NCBI GenBank assembly: GCA_035235625.1
Contig: CP141142.1
Coordinates: 47,471,644 to 47,535,643, forward strand
DNA from: Saururus chinensis
Lineage: Eukaryota; Streptophyta; Magnoliopsida; Piperales; Saururaceae
Reading direction: 5' to 3'
Length of the DNA stretch: 64,000 bases
Shown: piece after piece, positions 49,414 through 59,036 of the stretch
How the letters are laid out: every line of letters begins with the position of its first letter
Position numbering within the stretch: the stretch's first letter is position 1
Made by a program: the position numbers and the translations under genes
The notes under the pieces: generated by a model
Database searches by the model: none
What the model was told of the DNA's origin: nothing
Seen by the model: only the letters and a program-made list of their open reading frames with translations

Positions 49414-49701
49414 ACCCTAATGTCAAGAGAATGGAAAAATAGGGGTTTTTTTTATAGGGAGGCTCAGGGTTTCATGATACGAGCCTTAGGCCCGTTCAAT
49501 TCAGCCCATTCAATTTAAAATGATACATGAGCAATGTCTATAACCAAAATTTGGTGTATAACCGCCACTAAAACTGAAAACAACTCACCATTGGGAAAAT
49601 TTCATAGACATAGGCAAGGTGAACAATTTTCCCCGATCCGTCGATGGTTACCGATAATGAAATTTGCACTTCGCTGATCGCGAGCAACGACGCATCAAAG
49701 C

Positions 49702-49860
49702 TTGTCGACAATAGCCCAAAATTTCATTGGTGTAAACATCGACGTGTCAATGCTTACTGACAGTAAACCAAAATTCCATTGACACGACCATCGACGTGTC
49801 AATGCATGCTGGCAGTAACCCAAAATTTCATCGGCGTGAACACCGATGTGTCCATGCTTG
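49702..49860. repeat. 52-bp minisatellite, three copies
   Basis: Units start at 49702, 49754 and 49806, each with GACA/GGCAGTAA.CCAAAAT.TCAT and ATCGACGTGTCAATGC or a close variant. They lie in an otherwise unassigned stretch (49414-49980). Confidence 0.8.
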
Positions 49861-49980
49861 CCAACATTAATTTTTTTCAAAATTTAATACATTCTTAGAA
49901 ATGAATTTCTCACCTAGCAAACTAAGTTCACATTAAAAATGAAAAAATAGAAAAAAAAAAGTTTAAGGTCTCACATCATA

Positions 49981-50272
49981 AGGCGGAGACTAGCTAGATC
50001 TGAATTGTCGATGGGAAATTGAGGATGCACATTGATCTAGTTTCTTACTTTACTAGAATTACTGGTGCAAGAGCCAACTTTACATGGTTATTTATTTTCA
50101 AATAGATAATAGACTTGTACTTAGAAGGTTAGCATGTTATTTATGAATTTTTAAGATGTGTAGTAATATTATATATTTTAATATTCATATTTTTGAACAC
50201 CAGCCATTAGGACCTTGATATTTAATCTAATAATTTATTTTACATTTAAAAAATAAAATTTCTTATAATTTA
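49981..50272 (-). mobile_element. LTR fragment (family A4), left of the Pack-MULE
   Basis: 50055-50250 aligns with 57685-57860 of the A3 LTR (GCAAGAGCCAACTTTAC, GACTTGTACTTAGA, ATATTTAATC). The alignment continues on the far side of the Pack-MULE at 58984-59036 (ACACATGTTTTATT..GTTGTGACA). The MULE therefore inserted into an existing LTR. Confidence 0.65.
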
Positions 50273-50616
50273 GGAAAAATTATTTAAATAATAATTAAAA
50301 AAATATTTACCACAATGATTTCGTTCCAAAGTGGTGTTGCTTTTTGCCACACAGGCGCCAGCCAAGTAGCTAGAGCATGCGTGGCTTTTTTAAAAAATTT
50401 TATATAATTTCATCATTTGAAAGGATGAAATCAAGTTTAAGTTAATTTCCTCATTTCAAAGGACAAAATCAGGTTATGTTTATAACACCTTAACCTGATT
50501 TCGTTGTTTGAAACGACAAAATCACCTTAAAGGTTGTTTCATCGTTTGAAACGATGAAATCACCACATGTGACGTTCCCACTCGAACCCATGCATAAATG
50601 AATCAATCATGAAGAT

Positions 50617-51516
50617 ACCATGTTGACCTCGTTCGTCCTCATCCGACGACGTTGCCTACATCCGGCGTTCCTAGGGGAGAGGATCATATGCGACCATGTC
50701 TTCGCCAGCTCCGCCGCCATCCGCGAGTCCTGTTTCTTGGATATCACCTGCAACGCAGCCATTGACCTCCTTGCCTTCGTCGAGTTGGTGGCCACCAAGT
50801 GCAAGAAGTTCCTAGAGCATATGTTCTGCTTCCTCGACATCTACGATGTGGTGGCTGAGCTCTGGCCAGAGATCGAGTCCGTCTTCTCCTTTGACTCCAC
50901 AGCCGCTATTGGAGCCCAGGCAGGACGTCGATATCCCATCTAGCCGTTGTGATCAACGCCATGCTCTCCGACTTCGAGGCAGCGATCTAGAAGGACTCGT
51001 CCAAGAGGTCGGTCCCAGGCGGTGGGATCCACCCCTTGACGAAGTACGTCATGAACTTCCTCGGCTTCCTCACTGACTACAACGTCTGCCTCGTAGACAT
51101 CTACATCGACTTGCCACCACTGATGTGAACCTCCCTGCTGGAGATGCTCTTCCTTGACAACAACTCTTCGTCCTTCTCCCCCGACAAGCCAACATCCTTG
51201 GTGTCGGTCTGGCTCATCCTGGTCCTCCTCTGCAAGCTCGATAGCAAGGCAGAGCTATACAAGGACGTGGGCCTCCTCTTCTTGTCCAACAACCTCCAGT
51301 ACGTGGTAGCCAAGGTTCGAAGCTTCGACCACCGCCACCTCCTCGACTTGGAATGGCTGGCCAAGTACGAGGAAAGGGTGCGGCTCTACACCATGAACTA
51401 CAAGCGGGTAGCTTGGAACAAAGTGTCCTCGGCGCTGCCCGAAGCTCTCGTCGTGGAGATGTCTCTGGTGACGGCGAAGGTGGCATTTAGGCGGTTCAAC
51501 GCGGCATTTGGTGCAA
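50617..51516 (+). pseudogene. EXO70: Captured EXO70 exocyst subunit fragment
   Basis: EXO70 is the exocyst subunit that helps tether secretory vesicles at the plasma membrane. The fragment covers roughly the central to C-terminal part. Frame 1 (to about 50930) has ERIICDHVFASSAAIRESC, DIYDVVAELWPEIESVFSF. After a frameshift near 50935 follow AMLSDFEAAI, IHPLTKYVMNFLGFL, WLILVLLCKLDSKAELYKDV and NNLQYVVAKVR, ending near RRFNAAF (about 51516). It is broken by one frameshift and two in-frame stops (TAG at about 50988, TGA at about 51126), and lacks the N-terminal half and the extreme C-terminus. High GC and codon use differ from the AT-rich surroundings. It lies in the left part of the Pack-MULE, convergent with the LysM fragment. 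Confidence 0.85.
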
Positions 51517-52411
51517 TGGAGCGTGTCATGCTGCTCATGGCCGTGACACTTAAAGCATTTATTTCGGCCGTTTGCTTCTGAAACCGACCATGCTGTCATA
51601 GTTGCATGGCAACGGGATCTGGAGCCTCTGCCCGACCTGAATCAAGTTCGGGTCTAGGATAAAGTTCACGGCCACAATCTCCTGGAAAATCACTGTCACG
51701 CCCTGGCATTACCCGACCCAAGCCGAACCCGGTCCAAGGGCCGGTCAAGCGCACGGGGGCGACAAGGAGATTGAAAACGATTAGCGGAAGACTTATGCCC
51801 TAATCACGGGCGATCTAAAAATTTACGGAGTAAACGCACCACTTTGAGCAAGAGTAAATAAGTAAAATTAAAAGAGTTACTTTAACTCTAAAATAAACTA
51901 AAATCTCAAACCTACATACTAATTAATCCATAGCCCACACTAGGCTCCAAAACTATGTCTCAATCAATCTAAATGTATAATGTAGCACAAATCTAAAACG
52001 AGAACTACACCACATAGGTTCTAACATCATAGCAAAAATCAAAGAAACATGCCACACAAGAGGTCTCCACGTCTACTCCCAAGTCCTCTCCAACTTTTCC
52101 TCATAGAGAGGATCATGTCCATCTGCGTGTCACGCTACGCAGCCCCAAAGCAAAAGCACAAGAAAGAGAGGTGAGTATAACAAACTTAATAATGGTTTTA
52201 ATATAACTATAATCATCAAAAACACTACGACATAGTAATATAACAATTCAGATCAATGATTAACAAGATAAATATCATTTTTTGATCACACATATATATC
52301 TCCTAACCTCCATAATAGTGTCTAAATCGCATAGTTCAGACTATTTAGAATATCACCTATACCGCATGAGAAGTGTCTCTACTACACATTCAAATCATGC
52401 AATTCAACATC

Positions 52412-52760
52412 ATATAAACCTGCATGAGATGTATCTCTAACATACATTTCAGATCATGCATTAACATCATATAAACCTACATGAGATGTATCTCTAACAT
52501 ACATTTCAGATCATGCATCAACATTCTCATTCATCAGGCATATATAAGTGTCTTAACACACACTAGTCTAACATGCAAGTACATATACATAGAGAATAAA
52601 CCTACTCTTCAAGGCTGAAGCCCTAGAGCAAACACTTATCAAATAGACATGCTCCTCAAGGTCAAAGCCTTCGAGCAACTCCTGCTCCTTAAGGCCAATG
52701 CCTTCGAGCAACTACTGCCCATCAAGCCTAAACTCCCGGGCAACCCTACTTATTAAGACT
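52412..52760 (+). repeat. Tandem repeats in the B3 LTR
   Basis: 52412-52530 holds two ~59-bp units (ACATGAGATGTATCTCTAAC, ATTTCAGATCATGCAT). 52600-52760 holds about four degenerate ~42-bp units with AAGGCC.A.GCCTTCGAGCAAC. Confidence 0.75.
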
Positions 52761-54541
52761 AAAGTCCCAAGTAATAATACCTAGTAAGCCGGTGCACTCA
52801 GACAAACCAGCTAATCATAATAATCTCAATCGGCAAGACAAGTACACAACTTGTCCCCACATAATTCTATTTAACTAGACTCAACCCGGGGAGTGCACAT
52901 GTTCCACAAAGGAACTCAAATCAAAACATGTCCCTTCGGACCAATCAAATTTCGATTAAGCCAACGACCGATTAATCTAGCATGCAATTTCACCACATTG
53001 CATCTAATCGATCAAACTTGGTTAAGCTCGATAAAGTCTCAATCGGAAATCCATTTTCATGATGCATGCAACATGGAACATATGTGGGCAAGGCATACAT
53101 GAATCCTAATTCATGATAAGTGCTCTCATCAGCCCCTCATGCATCACTCATAATCATAATACCAAGCCTCATCATAATCATTAACCCCACATGTGTGTGT
53201 ACATGGTAGAAACACTTCATTCGATGTATATCAACATGCTTTGTAATTTAACTCACCATCACACTACACATGCACATTAACATCTAATCATGGATTCCAG
53301 CGGAACTCAAAGGAGAAGAACTATTAAAATCATAACTCAAGTCAAAACATAACCACATGCTAACATATGTAAGCTCATTCACCTCATATTGAGTCTAGGC
53401 ATAACACTAACATTCACCCATCATTTAACCACATCCTATAATGACATATCAGTCCATTAGCATGTTGTAACTCCACTAAAAACATGCTTAAACCATAGGG
53501 AATCAACCACTCATATCTTCAAGATAGCAATTCCAACAAATATATCCAACTACAAGCCATTTCACATAACTTTAAATATACACCACAACTTCTAAACATC
53601 AATAGTATGCTCTTCCAGTGGCTTACTCTGGCTCAAAACACTCCACATAAACATAAAAATGATATTTAAGAGTAGAGACATCGAAATAAGCAACATACAT
53701 ACAATGGTTAATTCTGCTGTGTAGCCGTTCTAACGCCCTGCATGGCTGTTCGATTTGCTAAACAGGAAATATGTCAAAACTTCAGTGTTGCCGTTCAAAC
53801 ACCTTGATAGGCCGTTCAAATGCCAACAAGGCATATTCGACCGTCTTCTTCATTTCAAATTTCAAACCGAAACTCCATTGATGCAACTTAAAATCTTCAT
53901 CTAGCTACCCAAACGCCATGAAAATTCCATCATAGCTTCCCGAAAGCTAATCTACACCATATTAAGACAAAACCCTAAGAAATTGAAACAAGAAATTAAC
54001 ATTTACTAATCCCACCATTAGAGCACTAAATCAAGTAAACCCATTCCAATTAAACCATAAAAATCAAAATTTTTACCATAGGAAAACTAAGATTTCAAAG
54101 ACCCATTACCTTATCACTTGATTAGGTTTCACCCTTCTTGGAAACCTTAATCTCCTTCTATTTCTGGCCTAATTGGGAACTAGGCCTTAATCACCCTCTC
54201 CAAGCCTATTCCCCAAAATGGAAATGGCTTAGCCTTTTCTATTTATAGTAGGGCTTAGGGTGTACATAATTAACTAGTGGGGTATGAATAGAAATTTGGG
54301 CTAAAAATGAGTATTTTGACCATTTGAGCACTAATTAAACCTGAAAAAAATTATGAAATTTTTTTATAAAAGCTTGAGTTGAGCCTGGGCTAATTTGGTC
54401 CAAAAGCCTCAATTTCTCCAGTAGGGCCCACAGGGGGTCCCTCCAAACCTTAATTTTTAAAAAATTAGTGAAAAATCAAAAAAAATCCAAAAGTTCAAAT
54501 TTGAGCAAACCAATAATTGTAAAGTTGATTTTGATTTAAAC

Positions 54542-57500
54542 TCTAATATCCCGAATTTTCCTGGCTTTCAAAAATTAAATACGTGGAAAATAAGGTGTTT
54601 GACACCCTTTGACCTTCTTAGAATAATAACTTTTCCCTAGATGGAATTTGTAGCTAAAACTTATATCATTAGAAAGAAGACAGAAAGAGCTTCAAAACCC
54701 CAACAAGATCGCACGAATCTAAGTTCAGATGAGGGAGATACGACTGTTCGAAGTTGAACATATCGTATAGGGCCCATTTATCCGATTTAAACGTGTTTTT
54801 GGGCCATTTAAGTCATTTGCAGGCCCGGTTAATTAAAGTTCCGAAATTAATTGTTAGAGGCCTAATTAGAGGACTTAAGTGAGGAGGGTTAACCCAACTT
54901 CTAGGGGGATTAGGAACCCTAATCCCCATGCTTATAAAAAGGTTACTTAGGGCACAATTAGGGGGGGTTCTTTTGGCTGAAAAGGCGGAGAAGGTGGTTC
55001 CGGCGAGGCTCCGGTGGCGAAGGATCGACGACAAACTGACAATTAAGGTAGGTTGGTTGTCTTAGTCTCGAGTCAATTAAATCTGCACACTGTTGTGTAA
55101 TTAATATGAGCAGAAATCTCTGCAATGAGTTTGTAATTTCTTATTCAATTAGTGCAGAGATCACTGTTCTCGTAATTACGCGGAACCGTGAATCTGCATA
55201 ATAAAAACATGCACTTTACTGCTTCCGGCCGGCCACTGGCTGCTGGTCTCCTTCCGGCCAGAAACCCTGGTAGCTGGGTGAAAGCGAATGGAAGATACTC
55301 ACCGGCGGCAGGTTCCGCCACCACCATGCAGGCCTGTACTTAAAAAAAACAAATGAGGTTGGCTACACTGTCCCCGATCATGCCGTCGTGGCCACGCGGG
55401 CCCCGGTTGCACCGGACGTGGTTGCGCTAGCCCTGGTCGTGATGGTCCTGGTCGTAGAGGTGGCTCCGCCGCTCGGATTCACAAAGAGAAAAACAAAAAA
55501 ATAATGGCTCTTTTGGCCACAGGCCGGCCACCGGACGGCGGCGGGATAGATGCAATCAGTTCCGCTGCACCCCGACGGTCTGGAAGCCTGAGGTCCGGGC
55601 CCCCCTCCGCCGCTGTGCAGGCGGTGCTGCCAGAGGCCAGGTGGCCTCTAGCCGGCCTTGTGGAAGACGACCCGCAGTGCGGGTCATCGTCTCGCTGGAC
55701 TGGGTTAGGTTACCCGACCTGATTTGGCCCAACTAAAAATAAATAAAATAACTGAACCAGGTACGGTTCAGTGAGCTATAACTTTCATAAAAATTCGAAA
55801 CAAATTATGAAGAACCATGATTGTATGCCAAGTGTCTGTACCAAGTTTTAGACCCGGTAAAAATCCCAAAGTCTATAAAATGACTAATTTACCCTTATAT
55901 ATTTAATCGTTTAATGACCGAAGGTTGGGGCTCCGGTTTAGGAGCCTATGAGTGGATTCAAAAATTAAGAGAAATCTCAGAGAGATTTAAGTGTGTATCC
56001 TAAATTTTTACTAAGCCACAAGTTAGGGAAAAATCCCAGTAATTAGATAATTGACTGTTCTACCCCTAGGGTTAAGGTAAGATAGTTAATTGAACTGGGT
56101 CGGTTCAAGGGGTTTACTACCCGGTTAAATAGTAAGAAAATTACCTCGGGTTCACAATGTCAATGTGTACCCCTGGGAGTAGTTTTGGACCCATCAAGGT
56201 TCAGGGAAGCTCTGAACAAAAAGACAGAAATACCCATGTGTAGACCGGCCCGCATTCGCGTGGATGTTATTAATGGGCCAATGTGATACTGAAACCTTTT
56301 GAGAGGTTAAAGGCTTACTCGAGAGCAGAGAGGACCATATCTAATGTTGAATAATTACTTTAATGCCCTTAGGTGCATTATGATCAATTTTTAAAGAGAA
56401 TTAATAAGCTAACCTAAGGAGGGTTAGGCACATGAACTCGAACAATTTAATATCATTATTGAATTTAATTATTGATATTATTATCTACTTGGACCTGTGT
56501 AATTCTAATGGTTTATGTTGTTCATTGTTTCAATATTTTGTTATTGTTGTTATGATAAGAGTTTATCATCTGCTTAAGATTATTGAAAGATTAATAAATA
56601 GGGTTTGATAGCTTTGGATTGGGTGAGAACACCTAATAAAGATAAAGACTAATATACCTCTGAGGGGTCTGGGACTAGTTCATAGAGTGAACAAAGCCTT
56701 TGACTTGACGATTTGCCTTGATTGATGAACTGATGGCAATCTCGAGTTTTAAACCCTAGTCTAGAAGAGACTAATAGGGTTTGGGATAGTTATTTGAAAT
56801 CCTGGCTTAATGATGAGTAAGATAGGGTTCAGAATGATTTCTTGAGTTTTAACTCTTTTGAGGAGTCGCTAATTTGACCGTGTAGTTGCACCTCCCCATT
56901 GGAGGGAGCTGTGCGTGAGCCGGGCTCACTTTCGATCTATTGAGGATCTTTTAGTGTACACACATTTGGATTAGCTGACATTCCTGCTTGGTTGGCTTTT
57001 CTTGCCACTTCTGTTCAGGTAATGTTGTGGGTCATGCACTTCCACTCCGATCAGGTCCTTTATAGGCTAGGAGGGGTGATGATACTTCCTAGTGGATTCC
57101 AGGGGCCTGGTGGATTCCAGGGTGCTTCATCATGATTTACCTTTAAGGGTGGTTTATGGCGAGTTATCATTTATCACTTAGGATGACATCTAATGAGTCT
57201 GTCTGTCATTAGGATTGGATGAGGATATTAATTATCGAACAATGGTTCGAGAGATAATTAATAGCATTGTTTGATATTGTTTTTTTAATTAGAACAAGTG
57301 GAACGATTAAAGGACTTGCATAAAGTGTAGGTTGCTTTAAAGTACTTAAGCATTACATGTGTGATGCTATGCTTCTTAGTATAGTGTCGTAACTGACAGA
57401 ACTACGTCTGGATCCGATCTTGTTGGAAACATTGGAGATGTTGTCTGATGAGTACGTAGGCAAATAACATCGGGTGATGTTAGCCTGATCCGAAAAATAT

Positions 57501-57959
57501 TAAATTTTGTTTTTGTTCTTTTGAACGCTCCTCTAAGGGGAGTAGATGTTTTGTTGCCTGTTTGGTCTTGTTTGCTTGCAGGTTCTTTAGATGGGGACGT
57601 TGCAAGATTAGGACGTTGGTGGGCATTTGAGGACGACATTGCACTTGTGGGATCTAGTCTCTTGCTTTTACAATTGTGTAAGTAATTTTAATTATTGGCG
57701 TGAGAGCCAACTTTACTTAGTTGTTTATTTTCAGATAGATGACAGACTTGTACTTAGAGGGTTAACTTGCTATTTATCGAAATTTGACACGTGTAATAAT
57801 ATTATATGTTTTGATATTCATATTTGTGAACCCCAGTTATCACGATCTGGATATTTAATCGGATGATTTGTTTTGTGTTTAAGAAAGAAAGAAAAAATTT
57901 GTCGTGATTTATCACGTGTCCTTTATTTAAAAAGGGTTTTGAAAATTCGGGTCATGACA
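54542..57959 (-). mobile_element. Solo LTR (family A3), inverted, TSD TAAAC
   Basis: On the minus strand it begins TGTCATGACCCG and ends CGGGATATTAGA, the expected terminal CA having changed. TAAAC flanks both sides exactly (54537-54541, 57960-57964). It is collinear with A2, including the block at about 57390-57500 that matches 4205-4320, and the tail with GTCGTATCTCCCTCATCTG. Length 3418 bp. It sits inside the B3 LTR. Confidence 0.88.
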
Positions 57960-58983
57960 TAAACCATAAGAAATCTCATTTATTTTTGAAACCACTGAAT
58001 AAATTAGAAAAAACGTTAACTACACAATAACCGATAAATAATCATTAAAATAAACCGATTTAAGATCAGGGATCTTACAGTCACCATCCCGTTGAAGTGA
58101 TTCCGGGCATTCGCGTCCAGCCCATCGCCATCCTTGACCCTATAAACGGGTATGTCGTTAGAGATTCTGGTTCCGTCCGGGCAGTTGTAGGGGAAGGGCA
58201 CCCGAATGGTGGACCTGGCCGAGACTAGGCGGGAGGAGGGGGTGGAGGAGGGTAGGTTGTTGGCGGATATGAGGGAGGGGAGGGACTCGACGGTGAAGAG
58301 GGACATGACCGCTCGGAGGGTGGTGGCGTTGGCCGGGATGTAGCCGGCCGTAGCAATGCAGGTGGCCAGAGACTGGCAGGTGAAGTTGGCGGCGCGGGAG
58401 ACACTGGCGCAGGCCACCAGGAGGAGGCACAGGCGGAGGAAGAGCTGCATCTGCTCGCCAGACTTCATCCTTGTTCTTCCAAAATTCGGGTCGAAGCAGG
58501 GTCACCTTAAAAAGCTCGGGGAGACTGGGACTGTGTCATGGTCTGGACTGCGGTGGCGCGAGACCATTGATGGGATGGAACTGCTTTGAATTTAGAGCAG
58601 CCCGGGCTCACGCGTAATTATCTCCTCATAATTAAGTTGATTTTGGCTTCAGTTTCAGAAGCTAACGGCCAAATGACAATTTCGTTGTTTAGAAGGACGA
58701 AATTGCGCCTAGGTTATTTCGTCCTTCTAAAGGACGAAACCAGGTTAAGTTTTATAAACGTTAAACCGATTTCGTCGTTTAGAATGACGAAATCAACTTA
58801 AACCTAATTTCATCCTTCTAAAGGACAAAATCATCTACAAAATTTTTAAAAAAAACCACGCAGGCACTAGCTACTTGGCTGGCGCCTGTGTGGCAAAAAG
58901 GAACACCATTTTGGGAAATATTTCCCAAAGTGATCCAAATTGGTAAAATAGTTTTTTTTAATTATTAATTAAGTAATTTTCTC

Positions 58984-59036
58984 TATAATTTATTACACAT
59001 GTTTTATTAAAAGAGTTAAAAATCCAAGTTGTGACA
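58984..59036 (-). mobile_element. LTR fragment (family A4), right of the Pack-MULE
   Basis: Continuation of the LTR at 49981-50272 after the MULE TSD, ending GTTGTGACA (minus-strand start TGTCACAAC). The LTR's own TSD was not found because its left end is unclear. Confidence 0.6.

Follow-up and report, generated by a model that had tools for sequence, protein, structure and literature searches.

Non-autonomous Mutator-like DNA transposons with host-gene fragments, the Pack-MULEs, were reportedly described by Jiang et al. in 2004. Silencing of their parent genes is a long-debated role of these elements. The TSDs of MULEs range from 8 to 11 bp (PMC6446971), the donors of rice Pack-MULEs are GC-rich (PMC4858842), and both two-donor and multicopy Pack-MULEs are already known (PMC4858842, PMC8277862). 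Two further systems are close to the family described here: the maize Mu killer (Muk), an inverted duplication of transposase and TIR sequence (PMC3440606), and Ssk-FB4 of Drosophila, a multicopy Pack-TIR for which the FoSTeST model is given (PMC8277862).

We analyzed a window of 64,000 nucleotides from Saururus chinensis (C3:47471644-47535643; throughout, "the window" means this whole stretch) and searched the genome of 516 Mb in 11 contigs for relatives of the element that it contains. By the structural features tested this element is a Pack-MULE, and it represents an established kind well, without being a new system. As in Pack-MULEs, its TIRs are hundreds of bp long, its TSD falls within 8-11 bp, it contains host-gene fragments and the copy has no transposase; its two donors are GC-rich (61% and 63%), which compares with rice (PMC4858842). 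Nothing defining sets it apart from Pack-MULEs; its peculiarities are the cargo, a single EXO70 gene spread over 22 loci, the likely fusion from which it arose, and foldback sisters. The foldbacks (E4, E5 and E13) resemble Mu killer in being inverted duplications within a Mutator-type family that could potentially give a long hairpin RNA; however, their arms carry the host gene EXO70, whereas those of Muk carry transposase and TIR sequence, and the window element itself is not a foldback (PMC3440606). Ssk-FB4 is likewise a chimeric TIR element multiplied by later transposition, with repetitive, rearrangement-prone TIRs and a separate TSD for each copy, but it belongs to an animal and to another superfamily (PMC8277862). 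A literature search that left most subscription papers outside its reach returned neither an EXO70 capture by a Pack-MULE nor a named EXO70 foldback, which says little. The locus lets one read how a Pack-MULE lineage may be assembled: a fragment captured once, then amplified and rearranged internally, and two Pack-MULEs that have likely fused.

The original prediction, of long TIRs, a perfect 9-bp TSD and two convergent gene fragments in an element of about 2.3 kb without later insertions, agrees with our measurements. The TIRs are approximately 290 bp (left) and 330 bp (right) in length; an inverted-repeat search pairs their arms as 79 bp (91%) plus 142 bp (74%), and a second comparison pairs 271 bp at 77%. 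The TSD is identical at 9/9 positions (TATAATTTA on both sides) and fits the MULE range, the EXO70 fragment (+) faces the LYM fragment (-), and the length is 2,320 bp after subtraction of the insert and one copy of the insert's TSD. TIRs, EXO70 and LYM take up almost all of this length, leaving the element without a transposase gene; no Mutator-type transposase domain was found in 20 open frames picked from sister loci. The TIR is multicopy rather than unrelated single-copy DNA: sister copies, which the prediction had proposed to look for, are present among the 40 genomic places scored out of 2,787 first-look candidates (80 matches, many of them a second match in the same place), and they match the window TIR at E values down to 3e-79. 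For thirteen sister elements both ends were available, and their TSDs are perfect in eight cases (8-10 bp) and show one mismatch in five; an end shift of up to four bases was allowed, and five of the eight perfect TSDs needed no shift. The TIR copies and the recurring sister TSDs rule out a chance origin of the structure. We therefore regard the window element, with high confidence, as a non-autonomous Mutator-like DNA transposon with host-gene fragments, now decaying, for which we propose a fusion history.

Table 1. Features of the Pack-MULE, in positions of the window.
Feature	Position	Strand	Remarks
Left TSD	50264..50272	.	TATAATTTA, identical to 58984-58992
Left TIR	50273..50563 (right limit approximate)	+	Inner half with short palindromic units
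Small 5' EXO70 piece	50647..50667	+	Donor ~1206-1233; from alignment, limits approximate
Main EXO70 fragment	50668..51508	+	Donor L034:1501-2357; frameshifted; 89% to donor
Non-EXO70 tail	51509..51551	+	After chimeric junction; common to sister elements; end approximate
Inner-TIR remnant, EXO70 side of LYM	51561..51587	+	27/27 identical to L063:620-646 (C7)
Inner LYM part	51594..51693	-	Matches L032 up to 5913
Later LTR-like insert	51694..58079	.	6,386 bp; TG...CA ends; second repeat inside; 5-bp TSD
Outer LYM part	58085..58633	-	167 bp upstream of start codon plus first-exon sequence; donor match
Inverted copy of inner-TIR motif, other side of LYM	58649..58673	-	25 bp, 88%; 19-nt core exact
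Right TIR	~58650..58983	-	Pairs with left TIR
Right TSD	58984..58992	.	TATAATTTA

Each window TIR (50407-50562 and 58679-58833) contains four 27-nt imperfect palindromes of the type ATTTCGTC...GACGAAAT. Two or more such units occur in 27 of 35 TIRs versus none of 18 interior control stretches, by a loose pattern that was written after the units had been seen; the palindromes are possible transposase-binding sites. Directly upstream of the element lies a 52-bp tandem repeat in three copies (49681-49870). The DNA immediately to the left of the element (50057-50257) is similar to the repeat nested in the later insert (57690-57890; 201 bp at 80%), and the element may thus have inserted within or next to an older repeat of this type.

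The EXO70 and LysM donor families named by the prediction are both borne out. The main EXO70 fragment, which contains Exo70_C matches with E values of 3e-20 and 7e-25, aligns over 857 bp with a gene at C1:61937458 (L034). This donor has one uninterrupted reading frame of 709 codons, in which Exo70_N and a full-length Exo70_C domain are matched, and so appears intact and intronless; no TIR of the window-element family was seen within 1.5 kb on either side. The search for intron-bearing donors, suggested as a check, consequently cannot work for EXO70, while for LYM an intron probably follows the open frame of the donor, judging from where that frame ends. The LYM donor is a LysM-protein gene at C2:4995762 (L032), of which the captured stretch starts 167 bp ahead of the start codon and ends within the first exon; leaving out the insert, 584 of 651 positions are identical (90%). 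The outer LYM part has a start that by eye looks like a signal peptide, and the donor frame, in which LysM domains are present, extends about 75 codons beyond the captured part. A genome search with LYM returned four places, namely the window, its donor and a pair of paralogs with 81-82% identity, and among transposon copies LYM was found only in the window element.

While the identity of the LYM fragment stands as predicted, its layout is refined: LYM itself is split by the LTR-like insert, with the inner part left beside EXO70. The insert is flanked by ATCAC (51689-51693) and GTCAC (58080-58084), a TSD with one mismatch. The second repeat sits within the insert, since what precedes 54503 and what follows 57961 adjoin in the sister locus L016. 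A 57-bp direct tandem duplication, 96% alike, is present within the insert at 52406-52519, and a relative of the insert is found on the upstream side of the parental LYM gene (L032:405-3588).

The analysis of the family covered 19 sister regions from the TIR search and further loci found through EXO70 itself; the EXO70 genome search had 29 candidates, every one of which was scored, and yielded 54 matches. Leaving out the window, the donor, one paralog at 67% and four loci where a 40-44-bp tail is all that is present (E6 has the tail only), 21 other loci contain pieces of the same EXO70 gene (E1-E5 and E7-E22). The capture of EXO70 was correctly predicted, but the fragment is not private to the window element. 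A same-family TIR lies near the EXO70 pieces in 19/21 loci (18 in the flanks examined, plus E15); none was seen for E19 and E20, which share the stretch examined with the other group B elements at ~92-97%. The pieces fall into group A (E2, E10 and E14; donor ~1206-1233 joined to 1501-1663), group B (E15, E17-E20 and E22; donor 1597-1766), group C (E7, E16 and E21; donor 1965-2189) and group D (E1, E3, E4, E5, E8, E9, E12 and E13; parts of donor 1187-2357, with E9 placed by tree); E11 (donor 1434-2357) stands by itself.

Structures shared among these elements point to a single EXO70 capture, followed by amplification and reshuffling. The window element has in common with all three group A elements the spacer and the deletion of donor ~1234-1500 across which the small 5' EXO70 piece joins the main piece; the chimeric junction after donor 2357 is identical in the window element, E1, E5, E8, E11, E12 and E13; groups B and C have ~1.4 kb of flank in common; and, among the matches listed, group B elements carry the 5' piece of group A, while the 3' flank of group A is carried by E21 of group C. 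These same features argue against the alternative that the EXO70 gene is a hotspot which the TIR family copied several times, with groups A to D as separate captures. Such repeated capture would account for the different boundaries of the EXO70 pieces among groups, and for a star-like tree of the pieces in which the donor branch is near zero and one clade of copies is neither shown nor rejected (p 0.337). It would also fit the higher identity of group A to the donor over the same stretch (94-96% vs 91% for the window element), which is unexpected under equal rates after one capture. On balance we consider repeated capture unlikely.

Beyond EXO70, the block that follows it in group D had no evident full-length donor gene among 59 matches; part of it resembles an AP2 domain (E 7e-5, under the Pfam cut-off), and in E12 (C7:34228875-34230872) this block is present in three consecutive copies. 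In a domain search of 20 selected open frames of the sister loci, ten had matches and ten did not. The matches were to Myb (L015), ankyrin (L024), ANTH (L027), Inhibitor_I9 (L020, L023 and L028), Exo70_C (L014), DUF4408 barely over the cut-off (L022), AP2 below the cut-off (L025) and retrotransposon domains (L016); L020 and L028 each have a single visible TIR. Inhibitor_I9 is typical of subtilase propeptides. The theme of secretion and immunity that had been proposed for the cargo does not extend to the TIR family, because the sister loci carry Myb, ankyrin, ANTH and Inhibitor_I9 pieces, and the theme itself is probably due to chance.

How LYM came to lie beside EXO70 is suggested by the sequence around it. 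On either side of LYM lies one arm of a 25-bp inverted repeat (51563-51587 and 58649-58673), and the 27-mer on C7 that matches the remnant on the EXO70 side is located 16 bp inside a same-family TIR match, pointing inward. With at most one mismatch, the 19-nt core of this motif occurs at four places in the whole genome: two in the window element, one at C7:15905024 (exact) and one at C1:20438777 (with a mismatch); its one exact place outside the window element is within another same-family TIR end. The 27-mer was not present in 20 other loci scanned, where matches reached at most 11 bases. As LYM sits between two inward-pointing pieces of inner TIR, the arrangement that an older TIR-LYM-TIR element would leave, we propose that an EXO70 Pack-MULE and a LYM Pack-MULE have fused. 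In this scheme an ancestor of the TIR family would have copied ~1.2 kb of one intronless EXO70 gene, and transposition would have spread this piece while deletions, duplications and inversions reshaped the copies in at least 21 other loci. Separately, the TIR family would have captured upstream and first-exon sequence of LYM, and the left part of an EXO70 element would then have joined the right part of the LYM element, inside the left TIR of the latter, to give TIR-EXO70-(TIR remnant)-LYM-TIR. This product would have arrived at its present site with formation of the 9-bp TSD, and LTR-like repeats would subsequently have inserted into its LYM part. The EXO70 capture, its spread, the arrival and the insertion are read from junctions, copies and TSDs; the separate LYM capture and the fusion are deduced from the TIR remnant, and we judge these two steps, taken on their own, to be reasonably probable.

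LYM could instead have been taken up in place, by an EXO70 Pack-MULE at gap repair, with the 27-mer as filler DNA from template switching. For Pack-TIRs, template switching at microhomology has been described (PMC8277862), and the LYM genome search, with its four places, revealed no separate TIR-LYM-TIR element free of EXO70, as in-place uptake would have it. Against this stands the inner-TIR sequence on both sides of LYM, which points inward like the two ends of one older element. Furthermore, LYM is not clearly younger than EXO70, though EXO70 had already been amplified: divergence from the donor is 9.4% ± 2.0 for EXO70 and ~8.4% ± 2.5 for LYM on the window-element lineage, the latter using a 30:10 split of polarised changes, and these values fit captures of like age. 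Uptake in place is conceivable, but we doubt it, and we retain the fusion of two Pack-MULEs as our working model. The fusion cannot be read from TIR similarity alone. The window TIRs are 75% alike, but in 11/16 other elements, likewise, neither TIR is closest to its own partner, and so this low likeness does not help the fusion model.

The captured sequences are decaying. Compared with its donor, LYM has 16 synonymous changes on 126 sites and 37 nonsynonymous changes on 357 sites, a dN/dS ratio of 0.81 (0.79 with the other copy of the insert TSD), with 16, 21-22 and 16 changes at the three codon positions; the EXO70 fragment has indels of 1, 9 and 6 bp. A coding element under selection is ruled out by the ratio and the changes per codon position for LYM, and by the indels for EXO70. 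C>T plus G>A account for 55/79 changes in EXO70, where the direction depends on the near-zero donor branch in the tree, and for 31/54 in LYM. An excess of these changes is typical of methylated transposon DNA. Today the window element most likely has no effect beyond that of a silenced repeat.

This bears on the proposal that convergent or antisense transcripts of the element yield small RNAs against EXO70 and LYM. The convergent order would make either transcript antisense to one donor, and perfect 21-mers do persist, 141 to EXO70 and 69-81 to LYM depending on the insert-TSD copy; a single shuffled control retained no 21-mers to EXO70 even at up to three mismatches. However, the predicted fold of the interior is no better than those of 8 shuffled versions (z -1.2), the 6.4-kb insert parts most of LYM from EXO70, and the cargo is free of coding constraint. 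We consider it extremely improbable that the window element is a working regulator.

The sisters E4, E5 and E13 appear to be better candidates for silencing, given that the window copy is decayed and split by the 6.4-kb insert. An inverted-repeat check of 18 elements (E11 without its left end) identified these three EXO70 carriers as foldbacks beyond the TIRs, while in the window element, which lacks a long inverted duplication, only the TIRs pair. E5 (C2:0.98 Mb) has arms of 719 bp at 92%. In E4 (C11:12.10 Mb), one pairing of 455 bp at 87% takes in the TIR and a second covers 274 bp at 97%; the corresponding pairings in E13 (C5:7.45 Mb) measure 536 bp at 73%, again with the TIR, and 161 bp at 93%. 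We folded six of the 18 elements with the outer 300 bp removed, and the predicted helices are 529 bp in E5, 266 bp in E4 and 155 bp in E13 (z -49, -38 and -35), versus 23-25 bp in the window element, E1 and E8 (z -0.5 to -1.3). A broader scheme, in which the TIR family amplified the EXO70 fragment and repeatedly duplicated it in inverted form, so that the foldbacks jointly act as hairpin-RNA loci against parental EXO70 and the window element adds antisense LYM, seems to us very unlikely. If the EXO70 foldbacks are transcribed, they would allow a direct test of whether gene fragments borne by transposons silence the gene they came from, and the sisters that are not foldbacks would serve as built-in controls. 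In the tree the two arms of E5 are each other's nearest rows (87/78) and those of E13 stand apart, and therefore the inversions may have more than one origin.
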